Below, piece after piece: positions 1,792 through 6,992 of a DNA stretch of 58,721 nt. Position 1 is the first letter of the stretch. Each line of letters begins with the position of its first letter. Source of the stretch: Pelagibacteraceae bacterium AG-426-G09 (GTDB lineage Bacteria; Pseudomonadota; Alphaproteobacteria; Pelagibacterales; Pelagibacteraceae). The DNA is taken from the NCBI GenBank assembly GCA_003210075.1, contig QCNR01000009.1, positions 1 to 58,721 on the forward strand, read 5' to 3'. The position numbers were made by a program, and so were the translations under genes. The notes beneath the pieces are model-generated. The model saw only the letters and a program-made list of their open reading frames with translations, ran no database searches and was not told the origin of the DNA.

Positions 1792-2643
1792 CTATTCACC
1801 AATTTTGATTCTTGTAAAATCTTTAATCCTTAAATCTTGAATACTCATTTCTGATATAATATCTTTTACTTTTTTCTTGGGCTCCATCACCCAATCTTGT
1901 GTCATTAAACTATTTTCTTCTTTAAACTTGTTGATTTTACCTAAACTAATTTTTTTTGCAATTTCTTCTGGTTTACCTGAGTTTTTAAGTTCCTCAGATA
2001 TAAGTTCTAATTCTTTTGATATTATTTCTTGATTTATTTCGTCTGAATTTAAAGCTAGAGGATTTGATGCTGCAATATGCATAGATAACTGTTTGCCAAA
2101 TGAATTAATTTGATCATTTTTTTTGCTTGTTTCAATACAAACTATTACACCTAATTTAGAAACATTATCTTTTATAATTGAGTGTTGATATATGAAATTT
2201 TGTGATTCTGGATTTTGAATTGTTTTTGCTCTTCCAATAGTTATTTTTTCTCCAATTTTTGCAATTAAAGCTACAAGATTATCATTAACTGATTTTCCAT
2301 TAGACATTGGTGTACTGGATAGTTTATCAATATTTGATGAACATAAATTGTTAATTTCGCCAATTTCTTTTACAAAATTTATAAAGTCATCGTTTTTTGC
2401 AACAAAATCTGTTTCACAATTAACTTCAATTAATGACGTTTTGTTTTCATCCCCACTTAAGACTACAACACCTTCTTTGGCATCTCTTGACATTTTTTTT
2501 GAAGCTTTTGCAATTCCCTTTACTCTAAGTAGTTCCGCTGCTTTGTCTAAATCACCTTTTGAATCTTTTAAAGCTAAGTTACAATCTTTAAAACCTGCAC
2601 CGGTAGATTGTCTTAGTTTTTTGATTTTTTCAATATCACTCAT
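1792..2643 (-). CDS. tsf: Elongation factor Ts
   Basis: EF-Ts is the nucleotide exchange factor for EF-Tu. The 283-residue protein starts with the UBA-like domain ([20 protein letters not shown], about residues 5-45) and carries the exchange-loop signature [11 protein letters not shown] near residue 80, followed by the two-subdomain core, with [10 protein letters not shown] near residue 190. Length is normal for the family. It lies 23 bases downstream of rpsB, the universal rpsB-tsf pairing, so it is probably co-transcribed and subject to whatever acts on the rpsB leader. Confidence 0.96.
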
Positions 2644-2666: not shown

Positions 2667-3455
2667 TTAATTTAATTTATTATTTTTGATTTCTTTTTTA
2701 TCGTTGACAGGTTTTTCTGACTTTTTATCAAAAGATTTATTCTCAGATTTTGAATCAATTTCATTGGTTAAATTACTTATTGCATTATTAATTGTTTCTT
2801 TAATTAAATTGCAGTAAAGCTCTATAGATCTTCTTGCATCATCATTCCCAGGTATAGGATAATCTATGTTCTCAGGATCAGAATTAGTGTCAAGTATGGC
2901 AATGATAGGTATTCCCAATTTAATTGCTTCTTTAATCGCTAAAGACTCATAGTTTGTATCAATAACAAATATTAAATCAGGTGTTTTTTTCATATCTTTA
3001 ATTCCACCTAAAGATCTTTGTAATTTATCTCTTTGAGTTCCCATTTTTAAAAGCTCTTTTTTTGTAAAACCTCTATTTTCAGAAGTTAAATTTTTGTTTA
3101 ATTCCTCTAATTTTTTTATTGAGTTAGAAATAGTTCCCCAATTTGTAAGCATTCCACCCAACCATCTGTGATTCACATAGTATTGATCAGTTTCTTTGGC
3201 TAACTTTGCAATGCTTTCAGATGCTTGTTTTTTTGTTGAAACGAATAAAACTTTTCCTCTATTTGAAATAGTTTCGTAAACTTTTTCTAGCGCTTGTTTA
3301 ATTAATTCTACAGTTTGGGTTAAATCGATAATGTGAATTGTGTCTCTTCTCCCAAAGATATATTTTTTCATTTTAGGATTCCATCTTAGAGTTTTATGAC
3401 CAAGATGAACCCCAGCTTCCAATAATTGTTCGATAGTTATATTAGGTATAGTCAT
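2667..3455 (-). CDS. rpsB: 30S ribosomal protein S2
   Basis: S2 binds late to the 30S head and helps recruit S1. I place the start at the ATG at 3453-3455 ([20 protein letters not shown]), because family members begin a few residues before this motif. A frame extending upstream to 3512 would read through a structured leader and give an atypical N-terminus. The 262-residue protein has the S2 signatures [13 protein letters not shown] and [11 protein letters not shown]. Its last 30 or so residues form a charged Lys/Asn/Glu/Ser-rich tail that looks disordered. tsf follows after 23 bases. A GGAAAGG ribosome-binding site lies 4-10 bases before the ATG. Confidence 0.94.
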
Positions 3456-3520
3456 GTTCCTTTCCGGTTGTGCCTCCACAGTAATTGCCCAAAGGGACCG
3501 GAGGTTTTTCAACCAAATAC
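3456..3520 (-). promoter_or_regulatory. Structured 5' leader of rpsB (candidate S2 autoregulatory RNA)
   Basis: In transcript sense the leader contains GGTTG (3470-3466 complement; partner CAACC) flanking an inner CCTCC/GGAGG stem and a small CCC-TTT-GGG hairpin. On the plus strand the pairs are 3466-3470 with 3510-3514, 3473-3477 with 3500-3504, and 3488-3490 with 3494-3496. The structure ends right before the GGAAAGG ribosome-binding site. An alternative pairing between 3497-3504 and 3459-3468 (8 pairs with a 2-base bulge) would bury that site. Leaders upstream of rpsB are known in several proteobacteria, and I recall one described bioinformatically in Pelagibacter. Binding of S2 here is inference. 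Confidence 0.6.
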
Positions 3521-3539
3521 TGTGTGCGTTTTGCGTGAT

Positions 3540-3567
3540 TTTTTACAATTATTTTAAATTAATACAA
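3540..3567 (-). promoter_or_regulatory. Possible promoter for rpsB-tsf
   Basis: In the rpsB sense there is TTGTAT (3562-3567) and TAAAAA (3540-3545) separated by 16 bases. Transcription would start near 3533 and include the structured leader. This is a pattern match in AT-rich DNA and therefore weak, but it lies in the only sizeable gap (about 120 bases) of the long minus-strand run. Confidence 0.3.
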
Positions 3568-3575
3568 GGTTTTTT

Positions 3576-6500
3576 TTACTGTATTTTTAAGGAAACTCCT
3601 GCATTTTTTAACTCTGCCAAAATTTTTTGGTCAATTTTTCTTTTATTACTTAATTTATAATGGTGCAAAATATTATTATTTTTAATTTTGAGTGTTACAT
3701 TAGTTGCGCCTGGGTTAGAAATTATATCCTTGATTTGATCTAAATCCTTAATATCAAAAGTTAAAATTTCTAGTGATTTAATTGGTATATTTGATAACTC
3801 ATTAATTCTACTTATTGTTCTAACATTAATTCTTATAGAATTTCCATCAGAGGAAATAATTTTAGTAATATTAAGAAATACCGAATTACCTTCTTTCAAA
3901 ATTTCTCTTTTATGTTCAAATATATCTGAAAAAACAAAAAGTTCAAATACACCACCTAGATCTGTAAATTTAATAATGGCGTAAGACAATCCTTTAGAAT
4001 TTTTTTTCTCTTGTATTTTCAATATTGTAGCAGCTATTACACAATCCTTTAATTTATCTTCAAGATTAAAATCATTAAAATTTATTATGTTATACTGAGG
4101 AAAAAATTCTTTGTATTGGTTGAGAGGATGATCAGAGATAAAAAAACCTAAAGTTTCAAACTCTTTTGATAGTCTTTCCTCAAATTGAAAATCGTTTACT
4201 TTTTCAAGTAGATCTTGATCGTTTTGATTTTTTGACTCATCAAATAAATTAATTTGATTTATTGATTTATTTTCATGAATATTTTTAGATTTAAGTATCA
4301 AACTTGGTATTGCTTCAAATAATGATTTTCTATTATTATTTAAACTATCAAAAGCACCAGCTTTAACTAAACCTTCTAATTGGAGTTTATTAATATCTTT
4401 TGGATTTAATCTATTTATAAAATCAAATAAATTTTTAAATTTACCATTTTTTAATCTTTCTTTTACAATATTTGAAATTGACTCGTATCCTACATTTTTA
4501 ATGGCACTGAGAGCGTAATAGAAATTACGGTCATCTGACGTAAAATCAGCATAACATGAATTTATATCTGGCCTAACTATATTTATTTTCATCCTTTTTA
4601 ATTCTTCATAAAATTCACTTAATTTATTTTGGTTTGATAATTCCATAGACATGGATGCTGAGAAAAATTCATTTGTATAGTAGGTTTTTAAATAAGCTGT
4701 TTGATAAGCTATGACCGCATATGCTGCAGCATGACTTTTGTTAAAACCATATTCTGCAAATGGTTCAATTTTCATAAAAATTCCTGCTGCAATATCTTTT
4801 GCAATACCATTTTTTTCTGCACCATTAATAAACCTTTGCTTTTGCTTTTCGAGCTCAGCTCTTTTTTTTTTACCCATGGCTCTTCTTAGTAAATCTGCTT
4901 CACCAGCTGTAAAACCAGATAGTACTTGTGCAATTTGCATTACTTGTTCTTGATAAATAATTACTCCATATGTTGGTTCCAGAATCTCTTTAAGTCTTGG
5001 ATGTAAATAATCAGGCTCCTTTCGACCATGTTTACAATCATTATAAATTGGAATATTGCTCATTGGTCCGGGTCTATATAATGCAACTAAAGCAATTATA
5101 TCCTCGAGTCTATTAGGCTTCATGTTAATTAATGCGTCTTTCATTCCAGAGCTTTCTAACTGAAAAAGACCAACAGTTTTTCCTTCTGATAATAAACTAA
5201 AAACTTTGGGATCTTCATAATTAATATTTTCAATATTAAAATCTTTGTTTTGATTTTTTTGTATAATTTTTTGTGTTTTATTTATAACCGTCAAAGTTTT
5301 TAATCCTAAAAAATCAAATTTAACCAATCCAGCATTTTCGGCTGAATACATATCAAACTGAGTTGAAGGTAATAAAAGATCAGAAGTTTGATCTTTATAA
5401 AGAGGGACAATAGAATTTAATTTTTTATCTGCAATAACAACACCAGCAGCATGTGTGGCAAAATTCCTGTTTAATCCCTCTAACTTTAATGACAAATCTA
5501 TAAGTCTTTTCACTCTATCATCATCTCTAATCAGTTTTTGCAAACGAGGTTCCGAATTTATACATTCTTGTAATTTCATTGGTCTTGATGGATCAAAAGG
5601 AATCATTTTACAAATTGAGTCTACAAAACCATATGGTAGACCAATAACCCTACCAACATCCCTTATAACCATTCTAGCTTTTAATTTTCCAAAAGTAATT
5701 ATATGAGCAACACTCTCTTTATATTTATTATTTAAATAGTTGAAAACTTGATCTCTTTTTTCCTCACAAAAATCAATATCAAAGTCAGGCATTGAAATTC
5801 TATCTGGATTTAAAAATCTTTCAAAAATTAAATTAAATTTAATTGGATCAATATCAGTTATAGATAAACACCAAGCAACCAACGATCCAGCTCCAGAACC
5901 TCTTCCAGGTCCTACCGGTATATTGTTAGATTTTGACCATTTAATATAATCAGATACTATGAGAAAATAACTAGAATACTTCATCTGATTTATAATTTCT
6001 ATTTCATGATTTAAACGAAGTGAGTATTTTTTAAATATTTCGTTTTTATTTTCATTTTTTCCAATTTTTACTAAGTTATTATTAAACTTTTCCTCCAAAC
6101 CTTTTGTAGCTTGTATTTCAAGCAACTTGTCAGATGTAATGTTTTTATCAGATGATATTTCTGGTAATAATGGTTTTGAACTGTTTGCTTTAAAATTACA
6201 TTTGAAAGGTAAATAATAATTATTTATTAAGGCCTCGGGCAGATCTGAAAATAATTCAAACATTTCTTTATTTGATTTTAAATAATGATTTTTTGATAAT
6301 TTTATTCTATCCTTATCATTAATGTAGGTTTTGTTTTTAATACATAGTAATGCATCATGGGCCTCATGCATTGACTGATCTAAATAAAAGACTTCATGTG
6401 TTGCAATTATTGGTATTTCAAGTTTTTGTGATAGAGTTAAATTATAAAGTTCAAATTGATTTTCGAATTGATCTTGATGTCTTTGTATTTCAAGGTAAAA

Positions 6501-6992
6501 ATCTTTAGCAAAATTTTTATTCAAAACTTCATATAAGTCATTTAAATCTTGTAACTTATTTTTTAAAAAGAGTTTTCCTGATAAAGAAAATAATGAACCA
6601 GAAAATACTATTACCCCTTCAGGATTTTGAATTAAATCAGAAATATCACAATATGGTATTAATTTATCTTGATTCTGAAGATAAGAATTAGAAGATAATT
6701 GTAATATAGTTTCATAACCAATCTTATTTTTAGCAATTAAAGGTAAACTTCCAATTTCATTATTAATTTTAAAATTAATTTGTGTACCAATAATTGGTTG
6801 TGTGCCGGCTTTTGAAATTTCTTCAGAAAACTCTAGTGCACCACATAAATTACTAGTATCTGATAAACCAACCGATTTTATTTTATTTTCTTTACAATAT
6901 TGTTTTAGATTTTCAATTTTAATTGCACCTTCGCAAATAGAATATTGAGTATGTATTTTTAAATGATTGAAGTTTTTATTTATTTCTTCCAT
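3576..6992 (-). CDS. dnaE: DNA polymerase III alpha subunit
   Basis: This is the catalytic subunit of the replicative polymerase. The 1138-residue protein has the N-terminal PHP domain (residues about 8-200), the palm motif GPGRGSGAGS (361-370) and PDFDIDF (402-408), which carries catalytic aspartates. It also has the finger-domain segment ALYRPGPMSN, GVIIYQEQVMQIAQ, the HhH region and a C-terminal OB fold (about residues 980-1060). Length is typical of the DnaE1 type (about 1160). The start overlaps the lolD 3' end by 17 bases, consistent with read-through from the lol genes. The stop lies 55 bases before the rpsB leader. Confidence 0.97.
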   Translation of the reverse strand: MEEINKNFNHLKIHTQYSICEGAIKIENLKQYCKENKIKSVGLSDTSNLCGALEFSEEISKAGTQPIIGTQINFKINNEIGSLPLIAKNKIGYETILQLSSNSYLQNQDKLIPYCDISDLIQNPEGVIVFSGSLFSLSGKLFLKNKLQDLNDLYEVLNKNFAKDFYLEIQRHQDQFENQFELYNLTLSQKLEIPIIATHEVFYLDQSMHEAHDALLCIKNKTYINDKDRIKLSKNHYLKSNKEMFELFSDLPEALINNYYLPFKCNFKANSSKPLLPEISSDKNITSDKLLEIQATKGLEEKFNNNLVKIGKNENKNEIFKKYSLRLNHEIEIINQMKYSSYFLIVSDYIKWSKSNNIPVGPGRGSGAGSLVAWCLSITDIDPIKFNLIFERFLNPDRISMPDFDIDFCEEKRDQVFNYLNNKYKESVAHIITFGKLKARMVIRDVGRVIGLPYGFVDSICKMIPFDPSRPMKLQECINSEPRLQKLIRDDDRVKRLIDLSLKLEGLNRNFATHAAGVVIADKKLNSIVPLYKDQTSDLLLPSTQFDMYSAENAGLVKFDFLGLKTLTVINKTQKIIQKNQNKDFNIENINYEDPKVFSLLSEGKTVGLFQLESSGMKDALINMKPNRLEDIIALVALYRPGPMSNIPIYNDCKHGRKEPDYLHPRLKEILEPTYGVIIYQEQVMQIAQVLSGFTAGEADLLRRAMGKKKRAELEKQKQRFINGAEKNGIAKDIAAGIFMKIEPFAEYGFNKSHAAAYAVIAYQTAYLKTYYTNEFFSASMSMELSNQNKLSEFYEELKRMKINIVRPDINSCYADFTSDDRNFYYALSAIKNVGYESISNIVKERLKNGKFKNLFDFINRLNPKDINKLQLEGLVKAGAFDSLNNNRKSLFEAIPSLILKSKNIHENKSINQINLFDESKNQNDQDLLEKVNDFQFEERLSKEFETLGFFISDHPLNQYKEFFPQYNIINFNDFNLEDKLKDCVIAATILKIQEKKNSKGLSYAIIKFTDLGGVFELFVFSDIFEHKREILKEGNSVFLNITKIISSDGNSIRINVRTISRINELSNIPIKSLEILTFDIKDLDQIKDIISNPGATNVTLKIKNNNILHHYKLSNKRKIDQKILAELKNAGVSLKIQ

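Follow-up and report, generated by a model that had tools for sequence, protein, structure and literature searches.

The dnaE-rpsB junction of Pelagibacteraceae bacterium AG-426-G09, contained in a 58,721-nucleotide stretch of DNA that we analysed as a whole (the window), raises the question of which pairings in the short leader of rpsB are conserved, and how they could control translation of this gene. An earlier note on the same DNA had proposed a switch between two mutually exclusive folds, an extended hairpin and a second pairing that hides the ribosome-binding site. The gene order on the minus strand is dnaE, the short leader, rpsB and tsf (names are our reading of the ORF translations), with the following features:

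1792-2643, minus strand: tsf (name from translation)
2667-3455, minus strand: rpsB, encoding ribosomal protein S2, with the conserved start ATG at 3455-3453 (ORF; protein alignment to relatives)
3456-3528, minus strand: rpsB leader RNA (rpsB motif, RF01815) of the rpsB mRNA (RF01815 28.4 bits; SAR11 model 75.5 bits)
3458-3463, minus strand: Shine-Dalgarno-like AAAGGA directly 3' of the pseudoknot (best anti-Shine-Dalgarno match within 16 nt of the ATG, -4.9 kcal/mol)
3464-3468, minus strand: pseudoknot 3' strand ACCGG, 8 nt before the ATG (123/123 leaders; covaries elsewhere)
3466-3514, minus strand: alternative hairpin, GGTTG/CAACC plus CCTCC/GGAGG (not conserved as a whole)
3474-3476, minus strand: P1 outer part, 3' strand GAG (pairs by alignment with CGC at 3526-3528)
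3477-3483, minus strand: P1 inner helix, 3' strand TACTGTG (same evidence as its 5' strand)
3488-3496, minus strand: P3, a short hairpin CCC-TTT-GGG (from the sequence; a two-pair version is standard in 62/104 by alignment column)
3497-3501, minus strand: pseudoknot 5' strand CCGGT at the P2/P3 junction (123/123 leaders; covaries elsewhere)
3503-3514, minus strand: P2 hairpin GGTT-GAAA-AACC (from the sequence; a P2 is described in the available text of PMC2704228)
3518-3524, minus strand: P1 inner helix, 5' strand CACAGTA (six pairs standard in 104/104; compensatory changes)
3525, minus strand: bulged A between the inner and outer parts of P1 (A in 104/104)
3526-3528, minus strand: P1 outer part, 5' strand CGC (three pairs standard in 90/104)
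3576-6992, minus strand: dnaE (name from translation)

The leader sits between dnaE and rpsB on the minus strand, directly upstream of rpsB and abutting the ATG at 3455. The sequence words on which the proposed switch had been built were all found on this strand: GGTTG at 3514-3510, CCTCC(GGT) at 3504-3497, GGAGG at 3477-3473, CAACC at 3470-3466, ACCGGAAAGG at 3468-3459 and ATG at 3455-3453. The interval assigned to the element, 3456-3520, was too short: P1 starts at 3528 and is partly cut off by it. The rpsB frame stays open upstream to a TTG within the leader (3456-3512, minus strand), giving an ORF of 281 aa. Judged by its relatives, the start of rpsB is the ATG at 3455 and not this upstream in-frame TTG; the S2 protein could be aligned from residue 1 in 123 of the 147 genomes of the order. 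The closest named S2 relatives are two Pelagibacteraceae loci, L261 and L262, with 85% identity, which places the window in the SAR11 clade.

Rfam models applied to the whole window at gathering thresholds detected three tRNAs only. Comparison with the models of known S2 leaders, which the earlier note had suggested, gave a mixed result: the RF01815 model matched 3452-3528 (E = 5.4e-4), but its 28.4 bits lie under the gathering cut-off of 40, and the leader likewise fell short of the 44-bit cut-off of t44 (RF00127) with 21.7 bits. When 144 genomes of the order were searched with a strict filter, RF01815 matched at E <= 0.001 in 69 of them, the window's own genome being without such a match, and its cut-off was reached in none of the 144. 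Meyer et al. described the motif in 2009, in 'Cand. P. ubique' and between dnaE and rpsB, according to the available text of PMC2704228. The Rfam rpsB model thus misses its cut-off in the clade of the motif's discovery and, because the motif was first described from that clade, we read the miss as a limit of the model. A SAR11 covariance model, built from 44 SAR11 leaders with the window excluded, matched 3453-3532 with 75.5 bits (E = 2.6e-20), and the rpsB leader was its sole match in the window up to E = 1.

The identification as an rpsB leader RNA is borne out by this score and by the position directly before rpsB, and the Pelagibacter precedent named in the earlier note by the P. ubique dnaE-rpsB junction in PMC2704228. 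The leader is the SAR11 form of the published rpsB motif (RF01815), and the element is therefore already known; this identity is supported by the dnaE-rpsB-tsf order, which matches the P. ubique site of discovery. In the part of PMC2704228 available to us, the motif consists of P1, a short P2 and P3 (three and two base pairs, respectively, in P. ubique) and a pseudoknot from the P2/P3 junction to the 3' extension of P1. The leader of the window shares the genomic junction, P1, the P2/P3 junction and the pseudoknot to a 3' extension after P1; it differs in scoring under the cut-off, and most SAR11 leaders studied here have no separate Shine-Dalgarno sequence. The RNA was met again in a later study, in its section on alphaproteobacterium HIMB5 (PMC6429828, available in part).

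For the comparison we collected rpsB leaders from 123 of the 147 genomes of the order, the other 24 being without an rpsB match, and aligned the 104 that are distinct; the 44 leaders of the SAR11 model were chosen by hand for diversity among the 103 distinct leaders other than the window's. A named set of 48 out of 80 loci, titled Pelagibacteraceae, Pelagibacterales or Pelagibacter, overlaps the 123 leaders and is not independent of them. The other-class set consists of the best-scoring 30 of 44 t44 matches and is gammaproteobacterial by inference. Forty-seven further alphaproteobacterial loci were picked by Rfam, of which 43 were counted; in L185, L191, L197 and L200 parsing for the canonical motif failed. 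Because this set may favour leaders with a Shine-Dalgarno sequence, the alphaproteobacterial counts were repeated with 55 leaders found through the S2 protein (from 56 non-window genomes, G184 being left out for want of an S2 N-terminus; the start of L228 was misread in this set).

Comparison of these leaders indicates that the conserved fold is helix P1 together with the pseudoknot CCGGU/ACCGG. All 104 distinct leaders form the first six pairs of inner P1 with standard bases, and 90 do so for all three pairs of the outer part, where CG to AU and GU to UA changes occur; the window has G x A as its middle outer pair. Taken together over the 104 leaders, P1 and the pseudoknot are paired in 98.6% of their cells; two-sided changes affect 148 cells, compared to 45 in shuffles (relatedness uncorrected), and the covariation is 0.304, compared to at most 0.112 when slid. 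RNAalifold predicted P1 alone from the 44 SAR11 leaders without the window. P1, the helix with real compensatory changes, had been missed in the earlier note.

The leader contains a short, almost invariant run, and it could be speculated that conservation acts on the DNA, as a promoter or operator, with the pairings incidental. The compensatory changes in P1 and the pseudoknot argue against this, and a simple consensus scan of 3380-3700 found no sigma-70-like promoter or terminator-like site. We regard such an explanation as highly improbable.

The window allows a 4-bp P2 and a 3-bp P3. A P2 of at least 4 bp was possible in 46 of 65 distinct regions compared to 50% of shuffles; as it was not clearly above shuffles in this stem-length test, P2 was rejected as a supporting helix. 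One SAR11 relative (L065, from genome G125) carries a much longer P2 hairpin in its rpsB leader.

The letters CCGGT and ACCGG occur in 123/123 leaders of the order and are invariant there; L084 and L085, which seem unpaired in the pseudoknot columns, are one-base misalignments and carry both. The distance from the end of ACCGG to the ATG is 4-10 nt in the 123 leaders. In 2460 trials with shuffled upstream regions, ACCGG had a 5-nt partner 355 times. By these comparisons, the conservation of CCGGT...ACCGG is beyond chance, while complementarity in one sequence is not.

Covariation of the pseudoknot appeared in the wider sets. CCGGU/ACCGG was found in 47 of the 48 named leaders, and the 48th (L292, Pelagibacteraceae) has CCUGU/ACAGG, changed on both sides; this single sequence carries the covariation within the clade. 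The 30 other-class leaders have GGGGU/ACCCC (14), UGGGU/ACCCG (10), CGGGU/ACCCG (3), UGGGU/ACCCA (2) or CGGGU/ACCCU (1), and the first pair is formed in 29 of them (shuffle mean 14.7, 0/5000 as high, relatedness uncorrected). CCGGU/ACCGG recurs in 42 of the 55 protein-picked alphaproteobacterial leaders, and compensated variants among the alphaproteobacteria include CUGGU/ACCAG (L209) and UCGGU/ACCGA (L238 and L251) and, by eye, CCGAU/AUCGG (L259) and UUCGU/ACGAG (L227). A rule that itself seeks complementarity gave pseudoknot-like pairing in 48 of these 55, where the pairing in L258 is probably due to chance and those in L241 and L256 are one-sided or partial. L258, L228, L237 and L247 are alphaproteobacterial rpsB leaders without a clear pseudoknot or hard to parse. 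These data extend the known motif by showing that the rpsB pseudoknot covaries, in one case through a compensated change inside the SAR11 clade.

The t44 element, or rpsB-tsf operator, of gammaproteobacteria (RF00127) resembles the SAR11 leader in lying upstream of rpsB, in carrying GGAGG in the 3' strand of P1 (29/30) and in having a matching pseudoknot. It differs in that the pseudoknot letters are changed in a compensated way and a separate Shine-Dalgarno sequence is present in 30/30, and the window leader stays under its cut-off.

The proposed switch differs from this conserved fold. In that reading, GGTTG/CAACC and CCTCC/GGAGG form the extended hairpin, which represents the ON state, in competition with a pairing that covers the ribosome site. 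The extended hairpin is indeed the nested minimum-energy fold of the window leader (-17.9 kcal/mol), but GGAAAGG is not left wholly free, as its GGA is paired in the prediction. The second fold does contain the true pseudoknot, adjoining the ribosome site, but its helix is the contiguous 6-bp UCCGGU/ACCGGA, and the rest of ACCGGAAAGG lies outside it. The stability of the minimum fold was no better than that of shuffled sequences (z = -0.12, 89/200 shuffles as stable), with a similar result for a longer leader (z = 0.34, 122/200), and single-sequence folding energy was rejected as evidence on this ground.

The covariance check of the first arm went against a conserved, mutually exclusive hairpin. 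Exact GGTTG and CAACC occur together in 1 of the 123 leaders, that of the window (1/104 by alignment column with gaps taken as unpaired), and 6/123 could form five standard pairs with NAACC. A 4-bp core of this arm, GGTT/AACC, is found in 69 of 70 leaders of the window's genus, and 16 of the 56 distinct leaders of the genus have a predicted minimum in which the 5' arm of P2 is paired to the 3' strand of the pseudoknot; both observations favour the hairpin.

Results for the second arm, CCTCC/GGAGG, were similarly divided. It is fully Watson-Crick in 2/104 leaders and, with G-U pairs counted, pairable in 36/104: 26/31 in the second family and 9/17 in other genera of the window's family, which speak for the hairpin, and 1/56 in the window's genus, which speaks against it, as does a central pair that fails in 63/104. 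Among the 123 leaders CCTCC is present in 69, GGAGG in 4 and both in the window only, the other three GGAGG leaders carrying CCCCC. The named set has CCTCC in 39/48, GGAGG in 4/48 and both in 3/48 (L261, L262 and L283); the two words are thus kept in L261 and L262, which are nearest to the window among the named relatives. Elsewhere among the relatives GGTGG takes the place of GGAGG. On the other hand, GGAGG persists in 29/43 alphaproteobacterial and 29/30 other-class leaders. The 43 include 7 with CCTCC and 6 with a pairable arm; the 30 include none of either kind. From this distribution of sequences we conclude that GGAGG is kept as part of P1 and not as the partner of CCTCC.

Considered as a whole set over the 104 leaders, the pairs of the alternative hairpin reached a covariation of 0.146, above their own shuffles (0.075) and slid versions (at most 0.067). 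The predicted minimum folds point the other way: a hairpin like the proposed one appears in 2 of the 104 leaders compared to P1 in 79, and in 8 of the 48 named leaders compared to P1 in 36 under a looser rule, with L261, L262 and L283 not among the eight. Among the 123 leaders, only that of the window has the extended hairpin complete with both arms.

The two folds of the window are close in estimated energy. With assumed stacking and pseudoknot penalty values, neither is ahead at a penalty of 7 kcal/mol, and one of 9.6 favours the hairpin (calculated from -13.8 and -17.9). With the same values and the position of P1 fixed by alignment columns, P1 plus the pseudoknot is no less stable than the best P1-free fold in 104/104 leaders at a penalty of 7 and in 89/104 at 9.6, where the window fails. 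The hairpin may be a minor competing state in the window species, as these energy estimates would allow. As an explanation of the leader, the two-hairpin switch is improbable to us: taken as a whole, it belongs to a single sequence and is superimposed on a leader RNA that is known and widely conserved.

We consider it likely that the SAR11 rpsB leader adopts the P1-pseudoknot fold beside the start codon and acts as a closed/open switch under the control of S2. P1, with its bulged A, draws the P2/P3 junction near the start codon, and the CCGGU of the junction pairs with ACCGG just upstream of the ATG to form the pseudoknot. Surplus S2, probably with S1, would bind this fold and stabilise it, as we infer from E. 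coli. The 30S subunit could then not dock at the pseudoknot 3' strand and the adjacent purines, and less rpsB and tsf would be translated; once ribosomes have taken up the S2, the pseudoknot would open and translation resume. The two states of the switch would be those of the pseudoknot, closed and open, and not two hairpins in competition. Comparison supports the fold and its position, while S2 binding, repression and the open state are proposed by analogy. In E. coli, surplus S2 represses rpsB-tsf via the leader with the help of S1 (PMC10931766 section 2.2). The same section calls the mechanism unclear and places the ribosome site outside the operator, so the step to SAR11 is not a direct one.

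Another possibility is that the same conserved RNA is no S2 sensor in SAR11 and serves as a fixed structure for translation rate or mRNA stability, or responds to a different ribosomal protein, for instance S1. That the details of regulation are called unclear even in E. coli (PMC10931766) leaves room for this; however, all 123 leaders have the element immediately before rpsB, and the same source reports control by S2 in E. coli. We think this alternative unlikely, though not far-fetched, and prefer the switch under S2.

The position of the ribosome site bears on how S2 control could operate in SAR11. We scanned for anti-Shine-Dalgarno matches from -16 to -1 relative to the ATG, as a reach to -22 picks up the GGnGG of P1. 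The best match uses bases of the pseudoknot 3' strand in 120 of the 123 leaders, and a separate AAAGGA 3' of the pseudoknot is present in three (the window, G001 and G007). In the named set the best match falls on the pseudoknot in 47/48 and a separate site occurs in 2/48, with L261 and L262 among those. Other alphaproteobacteria have a separate site in 41/43 (Rfam-picked) and 38/42 (protein-picked, canonical pseudoknot), and their best site uses the pseudoknot in 5/43 and 7/42, respectively; for the other class the counts are 30/30 and 2/30. The pseudoknot lies 8 nt from the ATG in 82/123 leaders of the order compared to 13-19 nt in 36/43 other alphaproteobacteria.

We tentatively propose, with somewhat less than even confidence, that shortening of the Pelagibacterales leader has placed the pseudoknot 3' strand in the docking site, where in most species it also serves as the sole Shine-Dalgarno-like sequence. 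The window species and the two named relatives nearest to it, in which AAGGA follows the pseudoknot closely on its 3' side, would represent intermediate forms. S2 control would then be direct occlusion, with closing of the pseudoknot and pairing to 16S rRNA mutually exclusive, in contrast to E. coli with its reported ribosome site beyond the operator. If this geometry works as proposed, it would be a simple occlusion version of S2 autoregulation and a compact test system. It may be unreported: no earlier report was found among the matches listed, in a survey of titles and abstract starts that had the key rpsB papers outside it. The SAM-V riboswitch of Pelagibacter has, in the available text of PMC6061858, a pseudoknot that adjoins the Shine-Dalgarno sequence and is proposed to block it; it is an unrelated element with a small-molecule ligand and serves as an analogy only.

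The anti-Shine-Dalgarno sequence GGATTACCTCCTT was present in 6 of 10 genomes of the order that were searched and unmatched in the other 4, including the sole second-family genome. Of 31 genus genomes, one contained exact GGATCACCTCCTT; an extended exact version of the anti-Shine-Dalgarno had no match in the window's own assembly. Shine-Dalgarno use is weak in the window in general, where 14 of 49 ORFs of at least 150 aa reach -4 kcal/mol compared to 16% of shuffled upstream regions, so rpsB may have lost its separate site simply as part of this general trend.
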